Of a stretch of 64,000 nucleotides of DNA, positions 39,079 to 58,868 are shown in pieces. A program made the translations under genes and the position numbers. The stretch is taken from the NCBI RefSeq assembly GCF_907163135.1, contig NZ_CAJQUA010000001.1:1131001-1195000 (forward strand), in the 5' to 3' direction. The notes beneath the pieces are model-generated. The model searched no databases and was not told where the DNA came from. It worked only from the letters and a program-made list of their open reading frames with translations. Source of the stretch: Brachymonas denitrificans. Its GTDB lineage: Bacteria > Pseudomonadota > Gammaproteobacteria > Burkholderiales > Burkholderiaceae_C. Within the stretch, counting starts at the first letter, position 1. Every line of letters begins with the position of its first letter.

Positions 39079-39903
39079 ATGTCCGCGCCGCAGCAGCCCG
39101 ACCATCCCCCGCACCGCTCCGCTTCAGCCCCTGCCAGTGCCGGAAATCCCCTGCTGCGCCTGTATGCGCCGGTGGCCATGGTGATCGGCCTCGTCTCGCT
39201 GGCGGCGATCTGCCTCACCTGGTATCCGTTTGCCATGCTGGTGGGCCTGTTGCCGCTGCCGGGCACGCTGCGTCGCCGCATCGGCCGCGGCGCGATCTTT
39301 GCCGGCACACGCCTCTACACCTGGATCCTGCGCAGCCTCTGCTTTGTGCGGCTGGACCTGAGCGCGCTGCAACAGCTGCGGCAGGAGCGCGCGCTGGTCG
39401 TCGTGGCCAACCACCCTTCCCTGCTCGACGCCATCCTGTTCATGTCGCAGCTGCCCAATACGGTGTGCGTGATGAAGGCCTCGTTGCAGCAGAACATCCT
39501 GTTCGGCGCCGCCACGCGGCTGGCGCATTACGTCAGCAACGCCTCGCCAATGCAGATGGTCCGCCAGGCCTGCGACGAGTTGCGGCGCGATGCGCATCTG
39601 GTGATCTTTCCCGAAGGCACGCGCACCTCGCAGTGGCCGATCAACCCCTGCAGCCCGGCCAGCGCCATCATGGCGCAGCGCGCGCCTGCGCCCATGCAGC
39701 AGGTATTCATCGAGATGAGCACGCCGTACCTGGGCAAGGGCTGGCCGCTGTTCAAGCCGCCGGTGCTGCCGCTGGTCGTCACTATGCGGCTGGGCCAGCG
39801 CATCGAGGCGCCGGGCGAGCAGGTGGCGGCCGACATCGCCCGCCAGTTCGAGCAGGACATGCGCGAACATTTCGCAGCCCCTTCCAGTTCCAGCCATGTC
39901 TGA
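39079..39903 (+). CDS. PlsC-like 1-acylglycerol-3-phosphate acyltransferase family protein (aryl-polyene cluster)
   Basis: 274 aa from ATG at 39079. N-terminal membrane helix ([20 protein letters not shown]), then the acyltransferase motif I HPSLLD (H-x4-D), motif [11 protein letters not shown] and a proline motif near PVLPLVVT. Such acyltransferases belong to aryl-polyene clusters, where they are thought to help join the pigment or a fatty acid to a lipid. The end overlaps the glycosyltransferase start by 8 bases. Exact acyl donor and acceptor unknown. Confidence 0.85.
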
Positions 39904-40681
39904 TACCCCGAGCGCTGCCGGCGCGCCCCTGCCTTCACGCACCCATCTGGTGCTGATCCCGAGCTACAACCCCGGGCCGAAAGTGCGCGAAACCGTGCTG
40001 GGCGCGCGTGCGCAGTGGAATCCGGTCTGGGTGGTGGTGGATGGCAGCACCGATGGCAGCGCCGCCCTGCTGCAGCGCATGGCGGACGAGGACAGCGGGC
40101 TGAAGGTGCTGGTGCTGCCGCAGAACAGCGGCAAGGGCTCTGCCGTGCTGCACGGCCTGCGCCGCGCGGCCCAGGAAGGCTTCACCCATGCGCTGACCAT
40201 GGATTCGGACGGCCAGCACCCTGCGCACCTGATTCCGGCATTCATGCAGCAGTCGCAGCAACAGCCGGAGGCCATGGTGCTGGGCAAGCCGGTGTTCGAT
40301 GCCGGCGCGCCGCGCCTGCGCGTGAACGGGCGCAAGGTGTCCAATTTCTGGGCCAACCTGGAAACGCTGTGGAACGGCATCGGCGACTCGCTATACGGCT
40401 TTCGCGTCTATCCGATTGCCCCGCTGGCACGCATCATGCAGCGGCAGCGCTGGATGCGCCGCTTCGATTTCGACCCGGAGGCGGTGGTGCGCCTGTCGTG
40501 GAGCGGCGTGCCTGCGCTGAATATCGATGCACCGGTGCGCTACTTCCAGGCCAGCGAAGGCGGCGTGTCGCACTTCAAGTATTTGCGCGACAACACCCTG
40601 CTCACCTGGATGCACACGCGGCTGTTCCTGGGGTTTGTGCTGCGGCTGCCGCTGCTGATCTGGCGCAAGCTGGCGCGTTGA
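39896..40681 (+). CDS. Family 2 glycosyltransferase (dolichol-phosphate-mannose-synthase-like)
   Basis: 261 aa GT-A fold. LIPSYNPGPKVRET start, nucleotide-sugar Asp in VVDGSTDGS, PQNSGKGSAVLHGL and the DSDGQHP metal-binding motif (DxD-like). A hydrophobic C-terminal helix (LFLGFVLRLPLLIW) suggests membrane association. GT2 enzymes of this type occur in aryl-polyene clusters. It probably moves a sugar to a lipid or to the polyene product. Converges on the antiporter gene with 3 bases between. Confidence 0.85.
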   Translation: MSDTPSAAGAPLPSRTHLVLIPSYNPGPKVRETVLGARAQWNPVWVVVDGSTDGSAALLQRMADEDSGLKVLVLPQNSGKGSAVLHGLRRAAQEGFTHALTMDSDGQHPAHLIPAFMQQSQQQPEAMVLGKPVFDAGAPRLRVNGRKVSNFWANLETLWNGIGDSLYGFRVYPIAPLARIMQRQRWMRRFDFDPEAVVRLSWSGVPALNIDAPVRYFQASEGGVSHFKYLRDNTLLTWMHTRLFLGFVLRLPLLIWRKLAR

Positions 40682-40684
40682 GCG

Positions 40685-41998
40685 CTAGTCCGCCGTCACT
40701 TCCTCCGGCACATGGGTCTTCACCTGCCGGTAGCCCAGCTTCGGCAGGTAATGCCGCAACACCGGCGTGGTGATCACCGTGCTCACGATCGCCATGATGA
40801 CCAGCATGGTGAACACGTTCTTCGAGATCACGCCCAGGTCGTAGCCGATGTTGATCACGATCAGCTCCATCAGTGCGCGCGTGTTCATCATCACGCCGAC
40901 GATCTGCGACTCCCCGTGCGACATGCCGGCTGAACGCGCGGCCAGGTAGGACGGCAGATACTTGCCGATGCAGGCGGCCAGCACCACGATGGCACACCAG
41001 CCCCACAGGCCCAGACTGTCCAGCCCGCCGATGTCGGTGCGCAGCCCGGTGTAGGTGAAAAAAATCGGCAGAAAGAACACGTTGACGAACTGCCCGATGT
41101 GACGCCGCCAGGCTTCCACGAATTGCGGCTGGTCGTGCAGCAGCACCCCCAGCATGAAGCCGCCGAAGATGGCAAAAATGCCCAGCTTGTAGGTCACGAT
41201 GGCACTGAGGAACACCAGCACCAGAATCACGCCCAGCAGGTTGTTGCTCCAGTCTTCGCCCCCGCCCAGGTGGCGCACACACCAGCGCAGCAAGGGCCGC
41301 ACGCCCCACCAGCACACTGCCACGTACAGCACCAGCAGCGCCAGGGTGGAGCCGAATTGCGCGGCATCGAAACCGGACACCGCCAGCATGGTCACCAGCG
41401 CCAGCAGCAGCCAGCCCACCACGTCATTGATGGCGGCCGCGCTGATGGCAATCACCCCCAGCGGCTTGCGCGCAATGTCGAACTCGATCAGCATGCGCCC
41501 CAGGATCGGCAGTGCCGTGATCGAGAATGCCGTGCCCACGAACAAAGCCGCTGCCGTGGGATTGGCCTGTGGCGTGAGGATGGGCGTCATCCAGTAGCCC
41601 AGCGCATAGCCGAAGCCGAACGGCACCACCATGCTGGCCACGGCGATGCGCGTCACGCTGCGCCGATGTTCCTTTTCAGCGAGGTGGGAGAATTCAAATT
41701 CCATCCCGATCTGGAACATCAGCAGAATTAACCCTATCTGTGAAAGAATCTGCATCGCGTCGCCCGGCGTGGAGCGGAACACGAAATTGAAGGCATCCGG
41801 CCACAGCCAGCCGAACAGCGTCGGGCCGAGAACAATGCCGATGATGATCTCGCCCACGGCGGCAGACTGTCCCCAGCGCAAGGCCAGGTTGGCACCAATG
41901 CGGCCGGCCAGCACGATCACGCACAGCTGCAGCAGCGTGAAGAACAGCAGCAGTTCGCTCTTGTGCACCCCGGACAGGGCTTCGCTGGCGACGCTCAT
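40685..41998 (-). CDS. CPA2-family cation/proton antiporter (Kef-type)
   Basis: 437 aa, about 12-13 membrane helices. Motifs GEIIIGIVLGPTLFGWLWPD, MFQIGMEFEF and the AFSITALPILGRMLIE helix identify the CPA2 Na+/H+ or K+/H+ exchanger family. There is no C-terminal TrkA-N (RCK) domain, so it is not full-length KefB/C. It is the last gene of the 13-gene minus-strand pigment operon and overlaps the ketoreductase stop (ATGA), so it is made with the pathway. Its role in pigment production is not established. Confidence 0.87.
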   Translation of the reverse strand: MSVASEALSGVHKSELLLFFTLLQLCVIVLAGRIGANLALRWGQSAAVGEIIIGIVLGPTLFGWLWPDAFNFVFRSTPGDAMQILSQIGLILLMFQIGMEFEFSHLAEKEHRRSVTRIAVASMVVPFGFGYALGYWMTPILTPQANPTAAALFVGTAFSITALPILGRMLIEFDIARKPLGVIAISAAAINDVVGWLLLALVTMLAVSGFDAAQFGSTLALLVLYVAVCWWGVRPLLRWCVRHLGGGEDWSNNLLGVILVLVFLSAIVTYKLGIFAIFGGFMLGVLLHDQPQFVEAWRRHIGQFVNVFFLPIFFTYTGLRTDIGGLDSLGLWGWCAIVVLAACIGKYLPSYLAARSAGMSHGESQIVGVMMNTRALMELIVINIGYDLGVISKNVFTMLVIMAIVSTVITTPVLRHYLPKLGYRQVKTHVPEEVTAD

Positions 41999-42738
41999 GC
42001 GTACAGGCCCCCGTTGATGGAAATGGTCTGGCCGGTGATGTAGGCAGCTGCGTCCGATGCGAGGAAGGCGACCAGTTCAGCCACCTCTTCCGGCTTGCCG
42101 GCGCGTTTGGCGGGCACCATGTCCTTGATCAGCTTGTCGTCGAACACGCCTTCGGTCATGCTGCCGGCGATGATGCCGGGCGCCACGGCATTGACCGTGA
42201 TGTTGCGGCTGGCCAGTTCCAGCGACAGCGCGCGGGTGGCTGCCTGCAGCCCGCCCTTGGCAGCGGCATAGTTCACCTGCCCACGGTTGCCGGCCAGCGC
42301 CGCCACCGAGGAAATATTGATGATGCGCCCCCAGCGCTGGCGCACCATGGGCATGGTCAGCGGCTGTGTGACATGGAAGAAACCATCCAGATTCACCTGC
42401 AGCACGCGCTGCCACTGCGCGGCCGTCATGCCGGGGAAGGCGGCGTCGTCATGCACGCCGGCGTTGTTGACGAGGATGTCGATGGGGTGCTGCTCCAGCA
42501 GGGTGGCGAGCGCCTGCTGTACGGCAGCCGCATCGGTCACGTCGAACACGACGGGATCGGCACTGCCGCCTGCCGCGCGGATCGCCTGCACCACGGCATC
42601 TGCACGGGCCGGCTGGCTGCTGGCATGCACCCAGACATGGCAGCCGGCCTGGGACAGACGGCGGGCGATGGCGGAACCGAGATCGCCGCTGGCGCCGGTC
42701 ACGAGCGCATGGCGCTGACGGGAAGAGGAAGAGGACAT
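41995..42738 (-). CDS. 3-oxoacyl-ACP reductase, FabG-like SDR (ApeQ-type)
   Basis: 247 aa. NADPH motif TGASGDLG at 14-21, NNAG at 91-94, and catalytic Ser (SS at 143-144), Y157 and K161 in the YAAAK motif. Reduces the beta-keto group after each condensation in polyene chain growth. Located between the hot-dog dehydratase gene (12 bases) and the antiporter (overlap), the same dehydratase-reductase pairing as in known aryl-polyene clusters. Confidence 0.93.
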   Translation of the reverse strand: MSSSSSRQRHALVTGASGDLGSAIARRLSQAGCHVWVHASSQPARADAVVQAIRAAGGSADPVVFDVTDAAAVQQALATLLEQHPIDILVNNAGVHDDAAFPGMTAAQWQRVLQVNLDGFFHVTQPLTMPMVRQRWGRIINISSVAALAGNRGQVNYAAAKGGLQAATRALSLELASRNITVNAVAPGIIAGSMTEGVFDDKLIKDMVPAKRAGKPEEVAELVAFLASDAAAYITGQTISINGGLYA

Positions 42739-42750
42739 TGCGGGAAAAGT

Positions 42751-43197
42751 TCAGGTCTGTAAGGGAGCCGCCACATCCAGCATGGCGGCAATGCGCCCCT
42801 GCACCAGCAGGCTCTCGCCGGCATGCAGGCTGAACTGGTACATGGCCGTCTGTTCGCTGGCGGCGATGCGCTCGGCGCGCACGGTCAGGGGTTCGGAGCT
42901 GGCATCCAGCGTTTCGGCATGCAGTTGCACGTCGCGCACGCTGGTCAGGTAGCCGCCACGCGGGCGCTCGCCCTGTTGCTGTTGCAGGGCGCAATGCAGG
43001 GCCATGGCCTGCGCTGCATACTCGATGCCCAGCGCAGCGCCCATGCGGCCGTTCTCGCGCATGGGGTTGGCGGCATCCAGATGGGTGCGGGTGGTGCAGA
43101 CGATGTGCTGCTCATCCAGCTCACGCACTTCCTGCAGCAGGCACATGCTGCCCTGGTGCGGGATGCGTGCGGCGATCTCGCTCTGGCTCATCAGCAT
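42751..43197 (-). CDS. ApeP-type hot-dog 3-hydroxyacyl-ACP dehydratase
   Basis: 148 aa from ATG at 43197; ATG at 43191, which overlaps the upstream stop as TGATG, is equally possible. The IPHQGSMCLLQEV start and GIEYAAQAMALHCALQQ helix are typical of the ApeP-like dehydratase family of aryl-polyene and dialkylresorcinol clusters. It would remove water from the 3-hydroxyacyl intermediate to extend the conjugated chain. In studied systems this subunit works with a second hot-dog protein (ApeI), which here is fused to the ligase. Confidence 0.86.
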   Translation of the reverse strand: MLMSQSEIAARIPHQGSMCLLQEVRELDEQHIVCTTRTHLDAANPMRENGRMGAALGIEYAAQAMALHCALQQQQGERPRGGYLTSVRDVQLHAETLDASSEPLTVRAERIAASEQTAMYQFSLHAGESLLVQGRIAAMLDVAAPLQT

Positions 43198-44021
43198 GGC
43201 GTGACATCCACCTGCAGCCACTGGCCGGGCAACGACGGCAGCAGCACCCTGCCCGCCTGGCCGCTGGCCAGTTGCTGCAGCAGCGGCAAGGCGCGCATGG
43301 CGGGAATGCTGGTGCGCAGTTGCTCCAGCGCGGGGTCGGGCAGGCTCTGGCCGTTCACGCTCGCCGCCTGCGCCGCGGCATCGCTTCCCAGCCAGCGGAT
43401 ATCCAGGCGCGCCAGCGCCCCGGCATGCGGCTGCGGGCGCAGCACCATGGCGAGACCGGCCGCGTCGGGCACCGGACGCGTTGCACGCAGGGGTTCGGGA
43501 TAGTCAGCGTCATAGGCCACCAGCAGCATGTCGCGCGCTTCGCAAACACCCTGCACGGCTGCCTCCAGCAGGCCGGCGGCAAAGCTGGCATCGTAGGCCG
43601 CCAGCACCTGGCACGGGCCGGTTGCCTGCGCGGCAATGCACCAGTAGCCGGCTGCGGTGTTGTGCACCGAGTTGTGGAAACGGGTGGGCGATACGTCGCG
43701 CTGGTCGCTGGCCAGCACCTCGCAAATGGCATGGTAGTTGTGGCCATCGCCGGTGGACGAGCTGAACACCGATGCCAGCGCGGAGGGAGCCATGCCGGCT
43801 TGCGCACAGGCCTCGGTGCCCAAGGCCATCACGAGCTTGATGACGCGGCTGGAACGACGGCGTTCGGCCGGGGGCAGCATCTCGGGGACCGGCAGCACGG
43901 TGGCAGCGGGGACATAAGCCTCCTGCCCCGACAGAACCGCCTGTGCCTGCGGCCAATTGGCCAGCCCCGGTCCCAGTACGGCAAGGCCATGCACCCACAA
44001 TTGCAGAGACGATGTGGTCAT
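43191..44021 (-). CDS. Short beta-ketoacyl-synthase-like subunit without active-site cysteine (ApeC-type)
   Basis: 276 aa, about 130 residues shorter than a full ketosynthase. Resembles the N-terminal thiolase half (SSSTGDGHNYHAICE, FHNSVHNTAAGYWCIAAQ). Where ketosynthases have the nucleophile in TACSSS, this protein reads LAAYDASFAAGLLE, so the cysteine is absent. Such subunits pair with an intact ketosynthase as a chain-length-factor-like partner in aryl-polyene synthesis. The start overlaps the ketosynthase stop by four bases, which favours a 1:1 complex. Confidence 0.85.
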   Translation of the reverse strand: MTTSSLQLWVHGLAVLGPGLANWPQAQAVLSGQEAYVPAATVLPVPEMLPPAERRRSSRVIKLVMALGTEACAQAGMAPSALASVFSSSTGDGHNYHAICEVLASDQRDVSPTRFHNSVHNTAAGYWCIAAQATGPCQVLAAYDASFAAGLLEAAVQGVCEARDMLLVAYDADYPEPLRATRPVPDAAGLAMVLRPQPHAGALARLDIRWLGSDAAAQAASVNGQSLPDPALEQLRTSIPAMRALPLLQQLASGQAGRVLLPSLPGQWLQVDVTPC

Positions 44022-45232
44022 GCGCTACCTCCCACGCGGCTGAACACCAGACTGCAGTTGCTGCCGCCAAAGCCGAAGGAGTTGCTCAGTGCATGCTGCA
44101 GCGGCAGCGTTCGTGGCTGCAGCAGATAGTTCAACGGCGCAATGGCCGAATCCAGCGCCTGCGTACCGGCACTCCCCGGCCCCAAGCCGTGCGTGAGCGC
44201 CAGCGCACACACCACCGCCTCGACGCCGCCCGCGGCACCCAGCGTATGGCCGGTAAAACCCTTGGTCGAGCTGCAGGGCGTCTCCGCGCCAAACACTGCG
44301 CGCACCGCCTTGCCCTCGGCCAGGTCGTTGCTCGGCGTGGCGGTGCCGTGCAGGTTGATGTAGCCGATATCCTGCGGCTGCAGCCCGGCCATCTGCAGAG
44401 CGGCCTGCATCGCGGCCTGGGCACCTGCCCCTTCTGGATGCGGCGCCGACATGTGATGGGCATCGCTGGTTTCGCCATAGCCGGTGAGCAGAATGCTGCC
44501 TGCCGGCAATGCCTGCCGGTCTTCCGGTGCACGCTCCACCAGCGCAAAGGCCGCCGCTTCGCCAATCGAGAGGCCGTCACGCGCGCCGTCATAGGGACGG
44601 CAGGCGTTTGCGGAGGTCAGGCCCAGCGAGCGGAAGCCATACAGCGTTGTGAGGCACAGGGTGTCCACGCCCCCCACCACCACGGCATCGATCAGCCCGG
44701 CCTGCAACAGGCGGGCCGCACTGGCAAACACCTTGGCCGACGAGGAACAAGCCGTGGAAACCACCTCGGCCGGCCCCTGCAGGCTGAACCAGTCCTTGAC
44801 GAAGGCGCCGACCGAATAGGTGTTGTGGGTTTCGGCGTAATGGAAATGTAAAGGCAGGACCCCGGTCTGTGCGTCGCGCTCACGGTAGGCCAGCTCCGTC
44901 GAATAGATGCCGGCGGTGCTGGTGCCCAGAACCACCGCCACCCGATCGGCGCCATGGCGCTGCATGGCCTGGCGCACGGCGTCGGCAAAGCCGTCTGCCT
45001 GCAAACCGAGCTGGGCCAGCCGGTTGTTGCGGCAATCGTAGTGCTGCAGGGCTTGCGGCAAGGCCACTTCGTCCAAGCTGGCGACGGTGCCGGCCCAGGT
45101 CGGAAAATTGACCGTATCGAAATCGCACGGCGCCAGCCCGCTGCGCATGTCGCGCAGGGCCTGCAGCAGCGCTGCATTGCCGACGCCCAGGCAGGTGGTG
45201 GCCGTGTAATGGGTGAGAAGGATCGGGTTCAC
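44018..45232 (-). CDS. Beta-ketoacyl-ACP synthase, FabF-like (ApeO-type), GTG start
   Basis: 404 aa from GTG at 45232, which overlaps the deacetylase stop (GTGA). Intact catalytic triad: C162 in VSTACSSSAK, H295 in NLHGTATP, H329 in FTGHTLGAAG, with K324. It condenses malonyl-ACP with the growing chain and most likely dimerises with the cysteine-less subunit encoded next. This is the first of two active ketosynthases in the cluster. Confidence 0.93.
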   Translation of the reverse strand: MNPILLTHYTATTCLGVGNAALLQALRDMRSGLAPCDFDTVNFPTWAGTVASLDEVALPQALQHYDCRNNRLAQLGLQADGFADAVRQAMQRHGADRVAVVLGTSTAGIYSTELAYRERDAQTGVLPLHFHYAETHNTYSVGAFVKDWFSLQGPAEVVSTACSSSAKVFASAARLLQAGLIDAVVVGGVDTLCLTTLYGFRSLGLTSANACRPYDGARDGLSIGEAAAFALVERAPEDRQALPAGSILLTGYGETSDAHHMSAPHPEGAGAQAAMQAALQMAGLQPQDIGYINLHGTATPSNDLAEGKAVRAVFGAETPCSSTKGFTGHTLGAAGGVEAVVCALALTHGLGPGSAGTQALDSAIAPLNYLLQPRTLPLQHALSNSFGFGGSNCSLVFSRVGGSA

Positions 45233-46197
45233 GGATCTTGAGGTGAAAGGTGTGCGTGCAGGGGTTGTGCCGGGCTCATGGGTAGCGCAAGGGGCTGCGC
45301 GGCGAATGCCTGGCGCAAATGCACCGGCTGCAGCCCGGCGGCTTCCAGTTGCTGCAGCAATTGTGGCAGGACTTCCAGCACGACTGGCCGCCCTGCAGGC
45401 GTTCGGGCGCTGTTGCCGTCGTGCAGCAGCAGAATGTCGCCCGCTGTCAGCCCGCGCGTCAGCCGTGCCAGCACGCGCGAAGCATTGCCGTCGCGCGTGT
45501 CAAAACTGCGACGCGACCACATCGCCAAACGCAGGCCCATGCGCGCCAGCACGGGATCGAGCAAGGGATTGCGGAAGCCCGCCGTGGGCCGGAAAAATCG
45601 CGCCGGAGCCACGCCGGCCTCCTGCAGCGCTTGCTGCATGGCAAGCAGATCGCGCCGCATGCGCGCCATGCCCCACAGGGCAAATACGGGCGAATGGGCA
45701 TCGCCGTGGTTTTCGACAGTATGGCCACGCGCGACAATCTCGCGCACCAGTTCCGGGTGCTGGCGCACATGTCGGCCAATGCAGAAGAAGCTGGCACGCG
45801 CGCCATGGCGATCGAGCAGATCAAGCACCTGCGGGGTGACTTCCGGGTCGGGACCATCATCAAAAGTGAGCGCCACCTGCGCACGCGCTGTGGCCTCGGC
45901 CGGCAGGCGCGTGAGGTTGCGCCCGATCCAGGCATTGCGCGGGAGAAAGACCAGCGCCGTCAGCAACAGATGATTGAGCGCAGCCAGGCCCAGCCACCAG
46001 GGCCATGCAGCCGGTTGACGGATCAGGCCAAGCAGGCAGAGACTGTGCCAGGCCACGCTGACCCATACCAAAGGGACAGGACGCCAGCGCGCCGCCGGGG
46101 CAACGGCGGCTGAGGCGGACTCCGGCGCCCCTGGTTCAGCACGGATTTCCGGTGCCACGCCACGATTGGCCGCTCGAAGCTCGGGCACGGCACTCAT
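45229..46197 (-). CDS. NodB-type polysaccharide deacetylase family protein with N-terminal membrane helices
   Basis: 322 aa. After a variable N-terminus there are two hydrophobic helices (about 43-87), then the NodB fold: VALTFDDGPDPEVTP with the metal-binding and base aspartates, HGARASFFCIGRH, the zinc histidines in TVENHGDAHS, RFFRPTAGFRNP and ILLLHDG. Probably removes an N-acetyl group from a sugar on the periplasmic or membrane face. In this cluster the GT2 product is a candidate substrate. Overlaps genes on both sides by four bases. Confidence 0.86.
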   Translation of the reverse strand: MSAVPELRAANRGVAPEIRAEPGAPESASAAVAPAARWRPVPLVWVSVAWHSLCLLGLIRQPAAWPWWLGLAALNHLLLTALVFLPRNAWIGRNLTRLPAEATARAQVALTFDDGPDPEVTPQVLDLLDRHGARASFFCIGRHVRQHPELVREIVARGHTVENHGDAHSPVFALWGMARMRRDLLAMQQALQEAGVAPARFFRPTAGFRNPLLDPVLARMGLRLAMWSRRSFDTRDGNASRVLARLTRGLTAGDILLLHDGNSARTPAGRPVVLEVLPQLLQQLEAAGLQPVHLRQAFAAQPLALPMSPAQPLHAHLSPQDP

Positions 46198-49218: not shown

Positions 49219-49228
49219 CGATGCCTCC

Positions 49229-49822
49229 TCAGCGCTTGGCCAGCGGCTCGATCACCATCACCGAACGGTCGCCGTCGGCCTGCTGGTACTCGATGGTGCG
49301 CACCTGCTCCTTGTCGCCGCTGGCAATCACCTTGCTGATGATGGCCTTCATTCTGGCATCCTTGGGCACCATGGCCAGCGTCCACTTCTTCGCCGTGCCC
49401 TTGAGCTCATAGTCGTAGCTGCGCTCCAGCTTGCCGGCATCGCCCGTCAGCAGGCCGACGATCACATCCACGAAGGCCGCCGCCTGTGGCTGGCTCGACA
49501 GGCGCACGTTGTAGGTCTTGCCACCGCGCTCCACGCGCAATGCATCGCCATCCACGCGCAGCAGTTCGGCCGCCGGCTCGACTGTTTTCTTCTCGAACAG
49601 CTGCGGCGCCACATAGCGCACCTCGCCACTGCTGCGCAGCGGCTTGTCCAGCACCTTCATGTGCCTGGTCTCGACGAAGCGGCCGGTGCGCTCCTTGTAC
49701 TGGCCCATGTTCTGCATCAGCTGTCCCATGTCCAACGCCCAGGCGGGAGCCGACAGTGCAACACCGGCAGCCAGCAGCGCGGTGCGGCGCAGAAAACGGG
49801 AAAAAAGACCTTGTGCTTGCAT
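49229..49822 (-). CDS. LolA-like outer-membrane lipid/lipoprotein carrier of the pigment cluster
   Basis: 197 aa with signal peptide ([20 protein letters not shown]). LolA-like half-barrel: [21 protein letters not shown] (first 20 residues form the barrel strands), [15 protein letters not shown] and the C-terminal [14 protein letters not shown]. LolA homologues are standard in aryl-polyene clusters and are expected to ferry the lipidic product through the periplasm. It lies between an acyltransferase and the macrodomain gene. True LolA would be encoded elsewhere; lolB is at 17.3 kb. Confidence 0.88.
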
Positions 49823-49841: not shown

Positions 49842-50804
49842 TCAGGAACGGGGATCAGGCGCCGTCACGCCCGGCACGGATTGGACAGGCTTCGGGGGCG
49901 AAGGTTTCCAGAAATCGAAAAAATTGAACCAGTTGTGCGGAGCAGCCCGGCACTGCGCCTCCAGCTCGGCCACATAGGCCTGCTGGGCCGCCTGCAGCCG
50001 CTGCCCACGCTCCGCGCGCGGGCAATCGGAAAAATCGGCCAGCGGCACGGCATGCACGCGATAGCGGTTGCCTTCCTCGTACACGCCGGCCAGAAAGAAC
50101 ACCGGACAGCGCAGCATGGCCGCCAGCCGCAAGGGGCCGGCGGGAAACGACGCTTCCTCGCCCAGAAATGGCAGGCGAACCACGTCATCGTCATCCAGCC
50201 CGCGATCCGCCAGCAGCCCCAGCATGTCGCCCTGCTCCAGCTTTTCGCGCGCCAGCAGCATGGAATCGACCCGGTTGAGCGCAATAATGTGGCGCGGCGC
50301 ATCCGGATTGATGGCGGCCAGAATGCTGTTGATCTTGCTGGCGTTTTCTTCGTACATCAGCATGTGGGCACGCCGCTGGTGCGCATCGCCAAAGGCCTTG
50401 AGCATGGCAAAGCTGCCGAAGTGCGCTCCCATGATGATCAGCCCGCGCCCCCGCGACAGCGTGGCCTCCAGCGCCTCGCGTCCCTCCAGACGGATGTCGA
50501 ACAGTTCCATCTGGCCGTTGAGCACGAACACGCGGTCATGAATGGTGGTGGCAAAGCTCAGGAAGTGGCGATAGAGCTGCCCCCAGCCGGCCGGCCGCTG
50601 CCACAGGTGCCGGTAGAACTGCTGCAGCGCCTTGCGCGCGCCCGGCGAGAACAGCAGGAAATACAGGGCGATGCCGCGCAGCACCAAGCGGCTCAGCGGC
50701 CGCCCCAGCAATAGCGACAGCCAGACCATGAAGCGCACCACCGGCACCTGGCTGCGCTCGCGGCGCGTGGCCCATTCGGCACTGGCTTCGCCCTGGCTAC
50801 TCAT
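49842..50804 (-). CDS. LpxL/HtrB-like acyltransferase of the pigment cluster
   Basis: 320 aa. N-terminal membrane helix, then the lysophospholipid/lipid A acyltransferase fold: GLIIMGAHFGSFAMLKAF with the catalytic H-x4 pattern, GLLADRGLDDDDVVRLPFLG, and FPAGPLRLAAMLRCPVFFLA. Members of this family in aryl-polyene clusters are believed to transfer an acyl chain during assembly of the lipid product. ATG overlaps the ligase stop by four bases. Confidence 0.88.
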   Translation of the reverse strand: MSSQGEASAEWATRRERSQVPVVRFMVWLSLLLGRPLSRLVLRGIALYFLLFSPGARKALQQFYRHLWQRPAGWGQLYRHFLSFATTIHDRVFVLNGQMELFDIRLEGREALEATLSRGRGLIIMGAHFGSFAMLKAFGDAHQRRAHMLMYEENASKINSILAAINPDAPRHIIALNRVDSMLLAREKLEQGDMLGLLADRGLDDDDVVRLPFLGEEASFPAGPLRLAAMLRCPVFFLAGVYEEGNRYRVHAVPLADFSDCPRAERGQRLQAAQQAYVAELEAQCRAAPHNWFNFFDFWKPSPPKPVQSVPGVTAPDPRS

Positions 50805-52525
50805 GCGTTTTCCTGCGCTGGCGCAGACAATGCCCGCAAGGTGCCGCTGGCCACGGTCTCCTCGCCGCGAAGCACCCTGAAGCTGGCCGCAAACGGCTTG
50901 CCAGGCGCTTCCACAGGCTCCAGCCGGATGTCGAGAACATCACCCGGCCCGCAGGGCAGCAGGAACTTGGCCTGCTGCACGCTGCAGGCCTGTCCGCGTG
51001 CTTGCGGCAGCGCGCGCCACGCATCCACACAGCGCTGCAGCAGCAGGGCCCCCGGCACCACCGGCTGGCCCGGGAAATGGCCGGCGAACACTGGATGATC
51101 CACCGGCACCTGCCAGCGCAAATCGGGCTTGTGCGCAGCCGCATGCTGCCGCAACTGGTGCTCGGCATACAGCCCCTGCAGAGCCTGCTGCGGCAGCTTG
51201 CTCGTCTCGTTGCGCGGCATGCGCTCCACCAGAATCAGTGGACGCGGCAGGAACACCGCCTCCACATAGGGGTGCAGCGCATCCAGGATGTCACGCGCGC
51301 TCATGCCCGGCGCCTGGGCCACCAGACACAGCCGTTCCACCTCCGGCACCAGCGGCGCATGGCCACCCGGAACATCCACCGGCTTGGGGAGAAAAAAGGC
51401 ACCATCCTGAATGCCAGGAATCTGTGCCAACTGATGATTCAGATAGGCCAGTGACGAGCGGCGCCCCGCGATATTCACCATGTCGGTCTTGCGGCCGTGC
51501 AGGATGAAGCCATCCTCTCCCACCAGCTCGATCACATCCGACATGGGCACCCGCCCCTCCACATGGCCGCCACTGGCAAAGGTCGTATCCCCTTGTTGCT
51601 CCAGCCGCACGCCCGGAAACAGGCGCCAGGCCGGGCCCTCCAGCGGCCGGCGCACGGCCAGCTGACTGGTTTCGGTGCTGCCGTAGATTTCGCGCAGCGG
51701 AGCGCCAAAGTGTGCCTCGGCCTGCCCGGCGAGTGCAGGCGCCAGCGGCGCCGTGGCGCAGAGCAACTGGTCCACCGGCGGATAGTCCAAACCGGCATCC
51801 ACCAGCACGCGCAGATGCACCGGCGTGGTCACTAGCATGCGCGGCTGCGGCACGGATGCCAGCGCCTGCGCCACGTCTGCCGGGTAGAACGGCCTCCCCG
51901 TCCAGAGGCTGCAACCGGCCAGCAAGGCCAGCAGCATTAACGATTCAAAGCCATACATGTGCTGGGAGGGCACCGTCCCCACGATGCAGGTCTGCGACCC
52001 CTGATCCAGCCCCAGCATTTGCGCTTCGGCCAATGCATTGAGATGCAGCTTGCCCCAGGTCTTGGCATGCGGCACCGGCTGGCCGGTCGAGCCCGAGGTG
52101 AATACCAGCGACACCACCTGTTCCGCGGGAATCTGCGGAATCTCCACATCCTGTGCCTTCGACGGAACCAGTTGCCGCACGACCGGCAGCAAGGGCATCA
52201 GTGCCTCCAGCCCTTCGCTCTCCCCGTCATGCAGGCAGACCGGCCGGGGGGCGTGCTGCAGCAGGTGACGCACCGCCTCCGGCGCAAGCGACGAGGGTTG
52301 CAGACTGACACGTCCGCTTACGATGCCGGCGCCGAAACCGACCAGAAACAGGTAGCGGTTGCGACAGACGTTGAGGACGTGGGTGCAGTCCGCCGGCAAC
52401 CCTGCCGCCAGCGCGTGCACGTCATGCAGCCACTGCCGGACCGTGATCGGCCCGTCGGCATCGCGTGCCAGCACCGCATCAGGCTGCGCATGGCCGCACA
52501 GGGGCCAGAAGGAACGTGCATTCAT
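50801..52525 (-). CDS. Acyl-AMP ligase fused to a C-terminal hot-dog (ApeI-like) dehydratase domain
   Basis: 574 aa bifunctional protein. Residues 1-460: adenylate-forming ligase with FTSGSTGQP (142-150), YGSTET (281-286), HGRKTDMVNIAG (343-354) and the catalytic Lys in RNETSKLP (K443); probably loads the aryl starter acid on an ACP. Residues about 470-570: FabZ/ApeI-like hot-dog with DHPVFAGHFPGQPVVPG (H483 kept), but Gln at position 497 where FabZ has its catalytic Glu. Known aryl-polyene systems encode the ligase and ApeI as separate proteins, so this is a fusion. The two motifs are in one uninterrupted frame. Confidence 0.92.
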   Translation of the reverse strand: MNARSFWPLCGHAQPDAVLARDADGPITVRQWLHDVHALAAGLPADCTHVLNVCRNRYLFLVGFGAGIVSGRVSLQPSSLAPEAVRHLLQHAPRPVCLHDGESEGLEALMPLLPVVRQLVPSKAQDVEIPQIPAEQVVSLVFTSGSTGQPVPHAKTWGKLHLNALAEAQMLGLDQGSQTCIVGTVPSQHMYGFESLMLLALLAGCSLWTGRPFYPADVAQALASVPQPRMLVTTPVHLRVLVDAGLDYPPVDQLLCATAPLAPALAGQAEAHFGAPLREIYGSTETSQLAVRRPLEGPAWRLFPGVRLEQQGDTTFASGGHVEGRVPMSDVIELVGEDGFILHGRKTDMVNIAGRRSSLAYLNHQLAQIPGIQDGAFFLPKPVDVPGGHAPLVPEVERLCLVAQAPGMSARDILDALHPYVEAVFLPRPLILVERMPRNETSKLPQQALQGLYAEHQLRQHAAAHKPDLRWQVPVDHPVFAGHFPGQPVVPGALLLQRCVDAWRALPQARGQACSVQQAKFLLPCGPGDVLDIRLEPVEAPGKPFAASFRVLRGEETVASGTLRALSAPAQENA

Positions 52526-53280
52526 TGCTGGCGCTCCTCACCCCTGGCTTGCACCGTCTGCGACGGGCTGGCGGAAAAGGTGCGCCAGTCCACCGAACGC
52601 ATGGCCCGCAGTGTGTCCCGCAATCCGCTGCGGTCTGCCGGCGGCAGCAGCCAGCGGCGCGCCAGCACTTCCAGCACGAACAGCGCCACCATCAACGCCG
52701 GAGACAGCACCGACGAATAAAACGCCCAGGCCGTCGGCGTCCCGAACACGAACAACCCGGCAGACACCAGCCATACCAATGCAATCGTGAGCGCCCACAG
52801 CCAGGTGATGGCGCGGGTGTAGCGCAACTGGGCCAGCGACAGCACCGGATGCACCATGCCCGCCATCGCCGTGCACAGCGGGGTATGGCCGGCTCGCAGC
52901 GTATGCGCAAAGGCCCAGAACACCAGCCCCAGCAGCAGGGTTTCCTGCAGGAAATAGTACAGGCGCACCTGCTGTGGCTGCACCAGGCCATCGTGACCCG
53001 CAGGCACCAGCCAGGCGAGGCCTGCAGACAGTGTCGCCAGCAAGCCCGCAGCCAGCGCGAATTGCCAGATCCGTCCCCCCAGGCGGGACCCTGCAAGCAC
53101 CCCGCCCCACACCGCCAGCGGCGCCAGCATGGGCAGCAGCGACCACCAGCGCGGCTCACGCTGCACGCAGGCCCAGAACACCAGCGCGGCATACGCCAGT
53201 ACGGCCAGCCCCTTCAACAGGGCCGGCAGGGACGGGCGCGGCAATTCCGCCGGAGAGGAAAGCATGTAGGAAGCAGGCAT
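52522..53280 (-). CDS. COG4648-type integral membrane protein of aryl-polyene cluster
   Basis: 252 aa with seven or so membrane helices and no catalytic motif I recognise. The VRLYYFLQETLLLGLVFWAF and SLAQLRYTRAITWLWALTIA segments resemble the COG4648 membrane proteins found beside the ligase in aryl-polyene clusters. Function unknown; an export or scaffold role is a guess. Its stop overlaps the ligase start (ATGA), and the ACP gene lies 35 bases upstream. Confidence 0.8.
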   Translation of the reverse strand: MPASYMLSSPAELPRPSLPALLKGLAVLAYAALVFWACVQREPRWWSLLPMLAPLAVWGGVLAGSRLGGRIWQFALAAGLLATLSAGLAWLVPAGHDGLVQPQQVRLYYFLQETLLLGLVFWAFAHTLRAGHTPLCTAMAGMVHPVLSLAQLRYTRAITWLWALTIALVWLVSAGLFVFGTPTAWAFYSSVLSPALMVALFVLEVLARRWLLPPADRSGLRDTLRAMRSVDWRTFSASPSQTVQARGEERQQ

Positions 53281-53315
53281 GGAAAACCGCCCCGCCGGAC
53301 ACGGGGCAACACGCC

Positions 53316-53609
53316 TCAGGCGGTGCGGTGCATCACGATATGGCCGGCCAGCGCACGCAGCGAGGCAAACACCTTGGCATTGTCGGCATCGCCAGCCTTG
53401 ATCTGCAGGCCATAGCGCTTGGAGACCACCAGCGCGATCTCGAGGATGTCGATGGAATCCAGGCCCAGGCCGTCACGGTACAGCGGAGTATCCGGTTCGA
53501 TCTCGGCTGCGGGAATATCTAGGTTGACTGCCTCGACGACCAGCTCTGCCAGTTCGGGCAGCAGCGCGTCAACGGCGGCGGCGTCAGGGGTGTGTTGTAC
53601 GTCGCTCAT
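53316..53609 (-). CDS. Acyl carrier protein, first gene of the leftward pigment operon
   Basis: 97 aa. Phosphopantetheine attachment at S52 in GLGLDSIDILE, four-helix ACP pattern. One of two ACPs, as in characterised aryl-polyene systems where one carries the starter and the other the growing chain; which is which cannot be told. Expressed from the divergent spacer with a consensus -10 about 29 bases upstream. Confidence 0.93.
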   Translation of the reverse strand: MSDVQHTPDAAAVDALLPELAELVVEAVNLDIPAAEIEPDTPLYRDGLGLDSIDILEIALVVSKRYGLQIKAGDADNAKVFASLRALAGHIVMHRTA

Positions 53610-53637
53610 GGCGGTTCCTGTGTGCTACAAAGTTAGA

Positions 53638-53782: not shown

Positions 53783-54073
53783 ATGCTGAAACAACTGATC
53801 CTCGACTATCTTCGCCAGCAACCCGACGTTCCGGTCGACAAGCTCGCCGATCCCGCAGCCAGGATGGGCGAACTCGGCCTCGATTCCCTGGGCCTGGTCG
53901 AAATGCTGTTCGAGATCGAGGACAAGTACGGCTTCCAGATCGAGGAGCCGATGCGCTACGGCAGCATGACGCTGGACGAAGTGGTCGCTGACCTGGAGCA
54001 GACCATCCGCGCCCGCAACAACGGCGAGATGCCCGAGCTCCCGGCCCAGGCAGGCCCTGCCGGCCATGCGTGA
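53783..54073 (+). CDS. Acyl carrier protein, first gene of the rightward pigment operon
   Basis: 96 aa. Phosphopantetheine serine S35 in ELGLDSLGLVEML, followed by an acidic helix (FEIEDKYGFQIEEP). The C-terminal tail after residue 80 is flexible (PAQAGPAGHA). Overlaps the ketosynthase start by 8 bases, so the pair is probably co-translated and may interact. Confidence 0.93.
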   Translation: MLKQLILDYLRQQPDVPVDKLADPAARMGELGLDSLGLVEMLFEIEDKYGFQIEEPMRYGSMTLDEVVADLEQTIRARNNGEMPELPAQAGPAGHA

Positions 54074-55340
54074 AGTCGTCGTCTCCGGCATCGGGCTGAT
54101 CACCCCCTCGGGGCTGACGCGCGATGCCAGCTTCGCCGCCTGGCTCGAAGGCCGCAGCGCCGTCACCCAAGCACCCGAAGCCGTGCGCCGCTGGCTGCCC
54201 AACGCCCTGGCCGCCCCGCTGCCGCCCGGACTGGACGCCCGCCTCGACCGCGCCGACCAGGGCCTGGACCGCGCCACCCAGCTCGGCATGGTGGCCGCTG
54301 CCGAAGCCCTGCACGATGCCCGCTTCTCGCGCGACACCGTCAATACCGATCGCGCCGGTGTCTACGTTGGTGTGGGCCTGGCCGGCGCCGAAACGCTGGA
54401 AGCGCTCTATTCCACCTTCTACCAGCGCCTGTACGATCCCGAAGGCAACGGCCACCGTAACCCCACGGTGCTGCACCCGCTGACCGTACCGCGCCTGATG
54501 GCCAACGCCACGGCCGCAGCGGCCTCCATGCGCTACGGCCTCAAGGGCGCCTCGCACACCTATAGCGTGGCCTGCGCCTCGTCGGCGGTTGCCATCGGCG
54601 AAGCGTGGCGCGCCATTCTGGCCGGCCATGCCGACACCATGCTGGTGATCGGCACCGAGGCCCAGCTCACCACCGGCGCCTACCTCGGCTGGAACGCCCT
54701 GCGCGTGCTCGCCACGCCCGACACCGATGACATCGCCCAAAGCTGCAAGCCTTTCGACGCCCGCCGCAACGGCTTTGTGCTGGGCGAAGGCGCAGCCGCG
54801 CTGGTGCTCGAAACCCGCAGCACCGCCGAAGCCCGCGGGGCTCCCATCTACGGCGTGCTGTGCGGCTACGGCAGCAGCAGCGATGCCGCACATCTCACGG
54901 CACCCTCGGCCGACGGTCAGGCCCGCGCCATGCGCCAGGCCCTGCACGAGGCCCATATCACGCCCGAACAGGTCGGTTACATCAACGCCCACGGCACCGC
55001 CACCCAGGTTGGCGACGCCACCGAATCGCAATCGATCCAGGACGTGTTCGGCCCGCACGCCGCGCAGATTCCGGTCAGTGCCAGCAAGTCCATGCACGGC
55101 CATCTGATCGGCGCTGCCGGTGCAGTTGAATTCGCCAGCACCCTTCTGAGCCTGCACACCGGCTCCATCCCGCCCACGGCCAATCTGCAACAGCCCGACC
55201 CGGCCTGCCCGCTCGATTACGTTCCGCTACAAGCCCGTCACGGGCTTGCGCTAGAGTATGCGCTGTCCAACTCGTTTGCGTTCGGGGGCAGCAACGTCTC
55301 TCTGCTCGCGCGCAGATACCGGCCGCTGGCTGCCGCCTGA
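54066..55340 (+). CDS. Beta-ketoacyl-ACP synthase, FabF-like (ApeR-type)
   Basis: 424 aa with intact Cys-His-His: C170 in SVACASS, H309 in NAHGTATQ, H346 in SMHGHLIGAAG. Second active ketosynthase of the cluster, not overlapping a cysteine-less partner, so a homodimer is likely. By analogy with other aryl-polyene systems, one ketosynthase does the first condensation on the aryl starter. This one, next to an ACP and away from the other chain-growth genes, is the candidate. Confidence 0.93.
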   Translation: MREVVVSGIGLITPSGLTRDASFAAWLEGRSAVTQAPEAVRRWLPNALAAPLPPGLDARLDRADQGLDRATQLGMVAAAEALHDARFSRDTVNTDRAGVYVGVGLAGAETLEALYSTFYQRLYDPEGNGHRNPTVLHPLTVPRLMANATAAAASMRYGLKGASHTYSVACASSAVAIGEAWRAILAGHADTMLVIGTEAQLTTGAYLGWNALRVLATPDTDDIAQSCKPFDARRNGFVLGEGAAALVLETRSTAEARGAPIYGVLCGYGSSSDAAHLTAPSADGQARAMRQALHEAHITPEQVGYINAHGTATQVGDATESQSIQDVFGPHAAQIPVSASKSMHGHLIGAAGAVEFASTLLSLHTGSIPPTANLQQPDPACPLDYVPLQARHGLALEYALSNSFAFGGSNVSLLARRYRPLAAA

Positions 55341-55370
55341 CCTTCGCAGCCGCCGCCAAAAGGAAGCCCC

Positions 55371-56729
55371 ATGACCCCAGAATCCTCTCCGCCGGCAACA
55401 GCTGTGCCCGATACCCTCTATGACGTGCTGGTGATCGGCGGCGGCCCCGGCGGCAGCACCGTGGCCCCGCTGCTGGCGCAAAAGGGCTACAAGGTTGCGC
55501 TGCTCGAAAAATCGCATCACCCGCGCTTCCATATCGGCGAATCGCTGTTGCCGGCTAACCTGCCGCTGCTCGACGAGCTCGGCGTCGGCGACGAGATCCG
55601 CGCCATCGGCGTACCCAAGCATGGCGCCGAATTCGTCTCGCCCTGGCACGAAGCCGGCAGCCAGACCTTCCAGTTTGCCGATGCCTGGGACAAGAGCATG
55701 CCCTCGGCCTTCCAGGTGCTGCGCTCGGAGTTTGACGAAATCCTGTTCCGCAACGCCACGCGCAAGGGCGTGCACACCGTGGAAGGCTGCAAGGTCACTG
55801 CCGTGGATCTGGACAGTGATCCGGAGCGTGTGACGGTCCAGGCCAGGCATGACGACGGCAGCACCAGCCAATGGCAGGCGCGCTTTCTGGTCGATGCCTC
55901 CGGCCGCGATACCTTCCTGTCGAACAAATTCAGGATCAAGCACCCGAACAAGAAGCACAACAGCACGGCGGTTTATGCGCATTTCACCGGAGCCCGGCGC
56001 CATGAGGGCAAGGCTGAAGGCAACATCACCATCTTCTGGTTCGACTACGGCTGGTTCTGGTTCATCCCGCTGCAGGACGGCGTCACCAGCGTCGGGATGG
56101 TGACCTGGCCGCACTATCTCAAGACCCGCGGCGGCCGCAGCCTGGAGCAGTTCCTGCTCGATACCATCGCCACCTGCCCGCCGCTGGCCAAACGGCTGGA
56201 ACAGGCGCAGATCCATGCGCATGTGACGGCCACGGGCAACTTCTCCTACGTGTCCGAGCGCAACCACGGCCGCAACTATGTGATGCTGGGAGATGCCTAC
56301 GCCTTCATCGATCCGGTATTCTCGTCCGGCGTCTGGCTGGCAATGAAGGGGGGCGTATTTGCCGCAGAAGCCATCGACACCTTGCTGGCACAACCCGCCC
56401 GCCGTGCCGCAGCCTTGCGCAAGTTCGACCGCCAGATGCGCCACGGCCCGCGCGAGTTCTCCTGGTTCATCTACCGCGTCACCAACCCGACCATGCGCGA
56501 CATGTTCATGTCCCCGTCCGACAAATACCGCATGAAGGAAGCGCTGCTCTCCATGCTGGCCGGCGACATCTACGGCAAGACCCCGATCTGGAGCTCCATC
56601 CGCATCCTCAAGGGCGCGTACTACCTGCTCTCCACGCTCAACTACAAGCGCACCTACCGTGCCTGGAAAAAGCGCAGGAATGACATCGTCGCCATTCCGG
56701 GCCTGCTGCCCAACCAGACCGAATACTGA
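55371..56729 (+). CDS. FAD-dependent halogenase-like flavoprotein (tryptophan-halogenase superfamily)
   Basis: 452 aa. FAD motif GGGPGG at 23-28. HIGESLLPANLPLLDELGV and K83 in VPKHGAEF correspond to the region holding the catalytic lysine of flavin halogenases. WFWFIP at 228-233 matches the WxWxIP halogenase signature, and GDAYAFIDPVFSSGVWLAMKG is the second flavin loop (first 20 residues). Xanthomonadins carry bromine, so halogenation of the aryl head is the obvious hypothesis. Related non-halogenating monooxygenases or reductases share much of this pattern, so activity is unproven. Ribosome site AAGGAAG upstream. Confidence 0.8.
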   Translation: MTPESSPPATAVPDTLYDVLVIGGGPGGSTVAPLLAQKGYKVALLEKSHHPRFHIGESLLPANLPLLDELGVGDEIRAIGVPKHGAEFVSPWHEAGSQTFQFADAWDKSMPSAFQVLRSEFDEILFRNATRKGVHTVEGCKVTAVDLDSDPERVTVQARHDDGSTSQWQARFLVDASGRDTFLSNKFRIKHPNKKHNSTAVYAHFTGARRHEGKAEGNITIFWFDYGWFWFIPLQDGVTSVGMVTWPHYLKTRGGRSLEQFLLDTIATCPPLAKRLEQAQIHAHVTATGNFSYVSERNHGRNYVMLGDAYAFIDPVFSSGVWLAMKGGVFAAEAIDTLLAQPARRAAALRKFDRQMRHGPREFSWFIYRVTNPTMRDMFMSPSDKYRMKEALLSMLAGDIYGKTPIWSSIRILKGAYYLLSTLNYKRTYRAWKKRRNDIVAIPGLLPNQTEY

Positions 56730-56749
56730 GCCGCCCGCAAGGATCACGC

Positions 56750-57622
56750 ATGCTGCCTGCCCGCCTCCGCCTCTCCTCCGCCGGACTGCTGCTCGCCGCT
56801 CTGGCCATCGGCCTGCCGGCGCAGGCACAGACCGCCCTGCCCGCCAAGGATGCGGGCGCCACCCCGGCCGACAGCAGCAGCACCTCGCGCCGCCTGTTCG
56901 GCATCGAGGGACTGGAAGCCATCGGACTGGGCGCCGGAGTGGTGCATTTTCCCGCTTACCGCGGTGCCAGGACGACCCAGACCATGGTGCTGCCGGTACC
57001 CTACCTGCACTACGAAGGCGACTTCTTCAAGTCCGACAAGTACGGCATGCGCGGTGAACTGTTCAACAACGACCGCATCGAGCTGTCCATCAGCGCCTCG
57101 CTCTCGCCGCCCACCCGGGGCGACGTGCCCGAGCGCATCGGCATGCCCAACCTCAAGCCCACGGTCGAACTGGGCCCGCAGCTGGATTTCACGCTGATCG
57201 ACGGCAAGACGCATCCCGTCAACCTGCGCCTGCGGCTGCCGGTGCGCCAAGCATTCACGGTCGAACGCTCTCCGAAGAATGCCGGCGTGGTGTTCTCGCC
57301 CAACCTCAACCTGGATGTGCCGCTGGGCCAATGGAACCTGGGCATGGTGACCGGACCGATCTTCGCCAGCCGCAAGCAGCACGCCTACTTCTATGACGTA
57401 GCGCCCGAATACGCCAGCACCAGCCGCCCGGCCTACCAGGCGGGCGCCGGCTACAGCGGCTCGCAACTGCTGTTCTCGCTCAGCCGGAAATATCGCAACC
57501 TCTGGTTCGGATCCTACATCCGCTACGACAGCCTGCATGGCGCCAAATTCGCCGACAGCCCGCTGGTGGCGCAGAAGCGCTACGTCACCGGCGGCGTGGC
57601 GCTGATCGGCATCTACGACTGA
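56750..57622 (+). CDS. MipA/OmpV-family outer-membrane protein
   Basis: 290 aa with signal peptide (LLLAALAIGLPAQAQ). Beta-barrel pattern of alternating strands; family landmarks GLGAGVVHFPAYRGA, VLPVPYLHYEGDFFK and the final strand VTGGVALIGIYD ending in an aromatic-acid pair. MipA scaffolds peptidoglycan enzymes in E. coli, and OmpV-like relatives are porin-like. In this operon it may help place or excrete the pigment lipid. Stop overlaps the PAP2 start (TGATG). Confidence 0.86.
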   Translation: MLPARLRLSSAGLLLAALAIGLPAQAQTALPAKDAGATPADSSSTSRRLFGIEGLEAIGLGAGVVHFPAYRGARTTQTMVLPVPYLHYEGDFFKSDKYGMRGELFNNDRIELSISASLSPPTRGDVPERIGMPNLKPTVELGPQLDFTLIDGKTHPVNLRLRLPVRQAFTVERSPKNAGVVFSPNLNLDVPLGQWNLGMVTGPIFASRKQHAYFYDVAPEYASTSRPAYQAGAGYSGSQLLFSLSRKYRNLWFGSYIRYDSLHGAKFADSPLVAQKRYVTGGVALIGIYD

Positions 57623-58350
57623 TGGCGCAGCCGCCTGTACCGCCCGCCACCGGTCCGGCCCCTATCGCCAGCTGGCAGCGCCAGATCGGACAGCGCGTGA
57701 CCACCCTGTGGTGGCTCAAGGCCCTGGGGACCACCGCATTCATGTGGGTGTTCTTCCTGTTCTATTTCGAACTGCTGCACCATCCGCGCTACCCGATCAC
57801 GGTCATGCCTGATACCTGGATCGATCGTGCCGTCACCTTTTCGCCGGACTGGGTCATCATCTATTTTTCGCTCTGGGTATATGTATCACTGCCTGGTGCC
57901 CTGCAACGCGACCTGAGGGGGCTGCTCTGGCATGGCGCCAGCGCCTTGCTGATGTGTGCCGCGGGCCTGGCCTTCTATTACTGGTACCCTACGACTTTCA
58001 TGCAGCCCAGGGTGTACTGGAGCAGCCAGCCACTCGGACAAATTCTGCAGAGCGTGGACGCGCCGGGCAATGCCTTCCCGTCCATGCATGTGGCCTATGC
58101 GCTGTTTGCCTGGGCCTGGATCCGTCATGAGCTGCATGAAGTGCGCGCCCCGCGCTGGCTGCACATCCTGAGCCTGCTCTGGTGCATGGCCATCGGCTTT
58201 TCGACGCTGGCCACCAAGCAGCATGTATGGTGGGATGTGCTGGCGGGCATCGTGCTGGGCCTGTCCGCCGGCAGCATTGCCGTGCTGGCCACACGCTGGC
58301 GCAAGGGCCTGCCACTCCGCAAACCCATCACGTCTCCGCTGGAACCATGA
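57622..58350 (+). CDS. PAP2-superfamily membrane phosphatase
   Basis: 242 aa, about six membrane helices. Phosphatase motif 2 in NAFPSMHVAYA and motif 3 in STLATKQHVWWDVLAG, with the catalytic histidines; motif 1 (KxxxxxxRP) is not obvious, as in the inositol-phosphorylceramide-synthase/DUF-type branch. Could release phosphate from a lipid phosphate or transfer a phospho-head group. Overlaps neighbours on both sides, so it is part of the rightward pigment operon. Confidence 0.85.
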   Translation: MAQPPVPPATGPAPIASWQRQIGQRVTTLWWLKALGTTAFMWVFFLFYFELLHHPRYPITVMPDTWIDRAVTFSPDWVIIYFSLWVYVSLPGALQRDLRGLLWHGASALLMCAAGLAFYYWYPTTFMQPRVYWSSQPLGQILQSVDAPGNAFPSMHVAYALFAWAWIRHELHEVRAPRWLHILSLLWCMAIGFSTLATKQHVWWDVLAGIVLGLSAGSIAVLATRWRKGLPLRKPITSPLEP

Positions 58351-58868
58351 CCGAAGAACTGCACTATCCGATCGATCTCGACCAGGCCGCCATCGCCGCC
58401 CTGCTGCCGCACCGTGCACCCCTGCAGCTGCTGCAGCGGGTGGAGGTGCTGGCCCACGACCACTACACCGGTGAAGCCTGCTGGAGCGCCGACGATCCGG
58501 TGCTGGCCGGGCACTTCCCGGGTTGCGCCATCGTTCCCGGCGCGCTGCTGCTGGAAGCGGCGGCCCAGCTGGCTGGTGCTGGCCTGCTGGCCGGAGACCC
58601 GATCGCACGCGCCATCGCACCCGGCCACCTCGGCATGCTCACGGGGGTACGCAAATCCTGGTTCAAGCGCCCCGTGTTGCCGAACGAGCGGGTGCTCTTC
58701 ACCCTCAAATGCCGCCGCATGGGCGAAAAGGCAGTGCTGGCCAGCGCCACGGCCGAGGTCGACGGCCAGGAAGCCGCCACGCTGGAATTCATGGTATCGC
58801 ATGTGCCGGCAGAAAGCCTGCAGCACCTTATCCCGGCCGAACAGCTCAAGGACCTGCTGGGAAGCTGA
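58347..58868 (+). CDS. FabZ-like 3-hydroxyacyl-ACP dehydratase
   Basis: 173 aa from ATG at 58347, which overlaps the PAP2 stop (ATGA). Hot-dog fold with H56 in DPVLAGHFPG and E70 in IVPGALLLEAAAQLAG, so both FabZ catalytic residues are present, unlike the domain fused to the ligase. Third dehydratase domain of the cluster and last gene of the rightward operon. Converges with the Nudix gene 6 bases on. Confidence 0.88.
   Translation: MTEELHYPIDLDQAAIAALLPHRAPLQLLQRVEVLAHDHYTGEACWSADDPVLAGHFPGCAIVPGALLLEAAAQLAGAGLLAGDPIARAIAPGHLGMLTGVRKSWFKRPVLPNERVLFTLKCRRMGEKAVLASATAEVDGQEAATLEFMVSHVPAESLQHLIPAEQLKDLLGS

Follow-up and report, generated by a model that had tools for sequence, protein, structure and literature searches.

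We analysed a 64,000-nucleotide stretch of Brachymonas DNA (the window), part of a 2.75 Mb, two-contig genome of the Comamonadaceae, in which gene calling and family searches identified 21 genes in three transcription units between positions 39079 and 58868. The first unit, on the forward strand, pairs an acyltransferase with a GT2 glycosyltransferase (39079-40681), the second is a long reverse-strand operon running from 53609 to 40685, and the third, a forward-strand operon (53783-58868), diverges from the second across a 173-bp gap. Within the long operons, genes mostly overlap by 1-8 bases or are separated by gaps within about 35 bases, with a 100-base gap after the macrodomain gene. A promoter scan of the divergent gap found no consensus sigma-70 match, a result of little weight because the host may use other promoter types. 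Every gene class named in an earlier note on this DNA was present where that note had placed it; its inventory had, however, passed over the GT2 gene and a membrane protein gene at the ApeG/COG4648 position, and its two divergent operons are replaced here by three units.

Genes for two acyl carrier proteins (ACPs), an AMP-ligase, a ketoreductase (KR), three FabA/Z-type dehydratase domains (DHs), a LolA-like carrier, and an MMPL exporter occur together in this one cluster, the combination by which an aryl-polyene (APE) type II polyketide synthase is recognized. The same cluster was found in Brachymonas denitrificans DSM 15123, the closest relative carrying it, with the first ketosynthase (KS1) 90% identical. 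All 21 frames are open, and ratios of nonsynonymous to synonymous substitution (dN/dS) against B. denitrificans ranged from 0.02 to 0.17. We read the locus, with a probability of roughly 0.93, as a complete betaproteobacterial xanthomonadin/arcuflavin-type APE cluster that is predicted to yield a yellow, membrane-bound pigment.

Family membership of the polyene synthase

The top PDB matches of KS1 were 7f28_B and 6qsp_A, and its partner, a chain-length-factor (CLF)-like protein without the active-site Cys, matched only 7f28_A and 6qsp_B, the ApeC chains. We take 6QSP to be the ApeO:ApeC pair of Xenorhabdus doucetiae. The paper on 7F28, the Acinetobacter ApeO-ApeC complex (AbApeO-AbApeC), mentions such a structure (PMC8358021). 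In a tree of 51 ketosynthase sequences, of which only the main split was used because duplicate and fragment rows are included, KS1 fell in the ApeO branch together with E. coli CFT073 ApeO, a fully supported split from FabF, FabB, and ApeR. The aryl-polyene/xanthomonadin-type core proposed in the earlier note is thus borne out by both the structural matches and the tree. The Cys-His-His residues of KS1 are intact (motifs ACSS, HGT, and GH), both KS1 and the second ketosynthase (KS2) have the active-site Cys, and both ACPs carry the GLDS motif. Gln157 of the KS1 partner matches a Gln conserved in betaproteobacterial homologs, while E. coli ApeC has no matching Gln in the same alignment. From its position, Gln157 is presumed equivalent to Q166 of Lysobacter, where a Gln in the ketosynthase partner is essential (PMC3691225).

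KS2 belongs to a supported clade made up of KS2 proteins from other betaproteobacterial APE clusters, which lies nearer FabF than ApeR and is distinct from the FabF proteins of E. coli and of the host itself. Both the ranking of its PDB matches and its position in a separate FabF-like clade rule out KS2 as an ApeR ortholog. Its affinity to FabF could suggest that the ketosynthases serve fatty-acid synthesis or another polyketide class, an explanation that is barely credible given the ApeO:ApeC type of KS1 and its partner, and the grouping of KS2 with APE-cluster proteins apart from the E. coli and host FabF. The earlier note had named placement with FabF as an outcome that would count against it; KS1 clears this check, whereas KS2, nearer FabF, gives no simple yes or no. 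The ACP2-KS2-DH2 subcassette (53783-55340 and 58350-58868) is common to the Curvibacter, Rhodocyclus, Aquitalea, and Pseudogulbenkiania clusters. The ApeP-type dehydratase had no Pfam match and its best PDB match, 6qsr_B, was weak (E = 0.007).

Table 1. Genes of the Brachymonas cluster, in window positions, with the evidence for each assignment.
Gene product	Position	Strand	Basis
PlsC-like acyltransferase (arcD-like)	39079-39903	+	PF01553; HX4D and EGTR motifs
GT2 glycosyltransferase (arcE-like)	39896-40681	+	PF00535
CPA2-type cation/proton antiporter (arcG position)	40685-41998	-	PF00999, TIGR00932
FabG-type ketoreductase (KR)	41995-42738	-	PF13561, NF004200
ApeP-type dehydratase	42751-43221	-	Alignment with E. 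coli CFT073 ApeP; His and Glu kept
Cys-less CLF-like KS1 partner (ApeC/arcJ)	43191-44021	-	PF13723; PDB matches; alignment
Ketosynthase KS1 (ApeO/arcK)	44018-45232	-	PDB matches; tree
NodB-type polysaccharide deacetylase (arcN)	45229-46197	-	PF01522
MMPL/RND exporter (ApeM/arcP)	46194-48608	-	PF03176
MacroD-type macrodomain protein	48709-49218	-	PF01661, NF001664
LolA-like periplasmic carrier (ApeL/arcQ)	49229-49822	-	PF19574
LpxL-like acyltransferase (arcR)	49842-50804	-	PF03279; alignment
Acyl-AMP ligase fused to FabA-like domain (arcT+arcS)	50801-52525	-	PF00501, PF07977
Membrane protein, ApeG/COG4648 position	52522-53280	-	Position
Acyl carrier protein 1 (ACP1)	53316-53609	-	PF00550; GLDSI
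Acyl carrier protein 2 (ACP2)	53783-54073	+	PF00550; GLDSL
Ketosynthase KS2, FabF-like, cluster-specific clade	54066-55340	+	PF00109/PF02801; tree; PDB ranking
FAD-dependent halogenase-like protein (arcA)	55371-56729	+	PF04820
MipA/OmpV-family outer membrane protein (arcC)	56750-57622	+	PF06629
PAP2-family phosphatase	57622-58350	+	PF01569
FabZ-like dehydratase (DH2)	58350-58868	+	NF000582; alignment, His and Glu kept

Source of the aromatic head group

The earlier note had argued that the head group must come from elsewhere in the genome, and a single chorismatase of the FkbO/Hyg5/XanB2 family (PF21168, TIGR04444) is indeed encoded at about 1037230-1038324 of the contig, some 93 kb upstream of the window. 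Its TIGR04444 score of 276 bits falls below the curated cut-off of 325, marking it as a divergent member. The protein matched 5ag3 with E = 1e-58, and its Cys351 aligns with a Cys in 5ag3 and a Ser in the variant 5a3k; 5ag3, named in the PDB only as a "putative pteridine-dependent dioxygenase", is presumably Hyg5. On these homologies the XanB2/Hyg5-type chorismatase is the predicted source of the hydroxybenzoate starter. A family search of the host genome found no aromatic ammonia-lyase, which rules out this enzyme as a head-group source and extends to the whole genome what the earlier note had reported for the cluster.

For comparison, 78 named loci outside the genus Brachymonas were gathered with KS1 as the query, with flanks of up to 10 kb around KS1, so that counts for genes distant from KS1 are lower bounds. 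In around 45 of them a chorismatase homolog sits no more than about 10 kb from KS1, often beside the MipA and flavoprotein genes, and the Brachymonas copy hence appears to have become separated from its cluster. KS1 and chorismatase were both searched for in 11 Comamonadaceae genomes with a completeness of 94% or more: a betaproteobacterial-type KS1 was present in four and a strong chorismatase match in exactly those four; the other seven had no strong match, one being marginal at 27.7 bits. Since the genomes are related, this co-occurrence is support but not independent proof.

Accessory genes, known systems, and a proposed pathway

Homologs of most cluster genes recur grouped in the outside loci, which argues against a chance array. 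Of the 78, 71 carry a homolog of MMPL, 69 of NodB, 57 of GT2 (67-84% identity), and 55 of the PlsC-like acyltransferase. Homologs of the halogenase-like flavoprotein are present in 33 loci, and those of MipA and of PAP2 each in 23. The membrane protein at the COG4648 position had no Pfam match, and positional homologs occur in 39/78 loci. Antiporter homologs in 45 loci are mostly 26-37% identical; a copy 60-63% identical adjoins the KR gene in three loci (L084, L099, and L034), directly following it, as in the window, in two Thiobacillus-type loci (60-61%) and adjoining it in the Comamonadaceae genome G024 (63%). The Asp-Asp-Gly and HxxxH metal/catalytic motifs of NodB are invariant in 76 aligned rows. 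The flavoprotein, whose best PDB matches are halogenases, retains GGGPGG (GxGxxG), WFWFIP (WxWxIP), and the catalytic Lys83; the W, W, I, and P residues are invariant in 35 rows, and so is the Lys in the 33 rows spanning its site.

Many of these genes also appear in the 2014 arc table of Azoarcus sp. BH72, which lists a Na/H antiporter, an MltA-interacting protein, a polysaccharide deacetylase, a halogenase, a glycosyl transferase, two acyltransferases, and a XanB2 chorismatase (PMC3949708). The core shared with the window comprises the ketosynthase and its Cys-less partner, DH, KR, exporter, LolA, AMP-ligase, and ACP (PMC3949708). Azoarcus, however, has two unlinked arc clusters, both required for arcuflavin according to published genetics, together with a methyltransferase, arcF, a two-component system, and a dar cluster elsewhere (PMC3949708), whereas Brachymonas has a single cluster with PAP2, ACP2-KS2-DH2, and the macrodomain, and its chorismatase lies outside. 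Arcuflavin is nonbrominated although Azoarcus encodes arcA (PMC3949708), and halogenation is therefore not predicted here.

Loci from Dechloromonas, Hydrogenophaga, Thiobacillus, Aquitalea, Curvibacter, and Rhodocyclus (L046-L123) share the core order LpxL-LolA-MMPL-NodB-KS1-CLF-DH-KR, with GT2 and the acyltransferase nearby, but lack the macrodomain and keep the LpxL-like HX4E motif. The xanthomonadin/Lysobacter yellow-pigment cluster likewise combines a ketosynthase and CLF-like partner with KR, DHs, an acyltransferase, an ACP, and a XanB2-type head-group enzyme; unlike the window it has no halogenase gene, and the text of the paper names no deacetylase or antiporter (PMC3691225). E. coli CFT073 offers ApeO, ApeC, ApeP, ApeQ, ACPs, ligase, LolA, MMPL, glycosyltransferase, and acyltransferase functions, but also has the ApeB methyltransferase, ApeK thioesterase, ApeN (DUF3261), and ApeR, and none of NodB, MipA, PAP2, a halogenase, or a macrodomain is annotated in its cluster. 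The earlier note had regarded the accessory genes as nonstandard and their combination as new. That holds for the macrodomain, confined to two Brachymonas species, but not for the rest, which recur in betaproteobacterial clusters and mostly stand in the published arcuflavin table. The accessory set is normal for betaproteobacterial APE clusters, with the macrodomain as sole exception. The cluster is a further member of a known family, and the macrodomain alone is peculiar to its lineage.

The Azoarcus arc clusters, the closest published relative, make a hybrid in which the aryl polyene forms an ester with a dialkylresorcinol, and the product here might be such an arcuflavin-like compound rather than a glycolipid-anchored polyene. 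Other betaproteobacteria are published to combine both cluster types, and the host genome holds a second KASIII-like gene. This gene is, however, of the PRK07515 type, with phoH, pabB, dnaB, and cysteine-assimilation genes as neighbors (named by reading translations), and the surroundings of the cluster showed no DarA/DarB pair, so that we consider the hybrid quite unlikely. The second KASIII gene lies at about 1216364-1217498 of the contig (5365-6498 of locus L139), beside dnaB and sulfur-assimilation genes; its assignment as DarB is not supported, given its type and the lack of a recognizable DarA neighbor, for which no DarA profile was run.

For the glycolipid-anchored polyene that we favor, a pathway can be drawn by analogy with published APE systems. 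The chorismatase would supply 3- and/or 4-hydroxybenzoate, which the AMP-ligase would activate and load onto ACP. KS1 and its CLF-like partner would then extend the chain with malonyl units, helped by KS2, and FabG and the dehydratases would convert each keto group to a conjugated double bond. NodB, GT2, and the acyltransferases, the likely anchor-building set, would join the polyene to a lipid anchor carrying a sugar. The Xenorhabdus APE lipid reportedly bears a galactosamine-phosphate-glycerol group; were the Brachymonas anchor of this kind, an N-acetylated sugar would be added by GT2 and then deacetylated by NodB. Transport to the outer membrane would fall to MMPL, LolA, and the small membrane protein, and there the pigment may protect against oxidants and light; PAP2, MipA, and the antiporter presumably also have roles in the pathway. 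Brachymonas thereby gains a specific pigment prediction with an identified head-group source.

Lineage-specific changes in Brachymonas

Several observations weigh against a working pigment cluster. A literature search combining Brachymonas with arylpolyene or yellow colonies returned no report of a pigment, the cluster contains neither a thioesterase nor a methyltransferase, as the earlier note had stated, and just one phosphopantetheinyl transferase (PF01648) was found in the host genome. The LpxL-like acyltransferase lacks the HX4E/D motif, retaining H128 but with A133 in place of the catalytic Glu; among 73 aligned rows, the window and B. denitrificans are the sole ones with Ala at this site, and 69 have Glu, including the sister genome G005. 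The ligase-fused dehydratase domain has Gln497 at the catalytic acid position, a change seen in three Brachymonas genomes (the window, B. denitrificans, and G005), whereas most of the other sequences compared have Asp or Glu there. With both residues gone, the pathway may have lost or changed some steps. A PDB search found no relative of the LpxL-like protein.

These two substitutions, together with the location of the chorismatase away from the cluster, could indicate a cluster in decay that gives no finished membrane-anchored pigment in Brachymonas. The uniformly open frames, the low dN/dS throughout, including 0.09 for the LpxL-like gene itself, a value that denotes purifying selection, and the second, intact FabZ-like dehydratase make decay unlikely.

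Apart from the window, a macrodomain gene between LolA and MMPL was found in B. denitrificans alone; searches for the gene in other Brachymonas genomes, some of which are incomplete, gave no match, and its occurrence in 0/78 outside loci led us to reject the idea that these clusters carry it in general. The protein resembles MACROD-type ADP-ribose enzymes (MACROD2, 4iqy; E = 1e-52), and its dN/dS of 0.16 denotes purifying selection. Conceivably, though this is very unlikely, the lipid-attaching part of the pathway changed in the ancestor of the two Brachymonas species: the LpxL-like protein, catalytically dead, would have been kept as a structural or carrier protein, and a macrodomain protein that binds ADP-ribose would have been recruited into the operon to regulate or tailor the pigment lipid. 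Both the macrodomain and the altered acyltransferase offer minor leads specific to this lineage. The nearest other macrodomain copy, 65% identical, is in genome G024, about 1.8 Mb from the G024 cluster.

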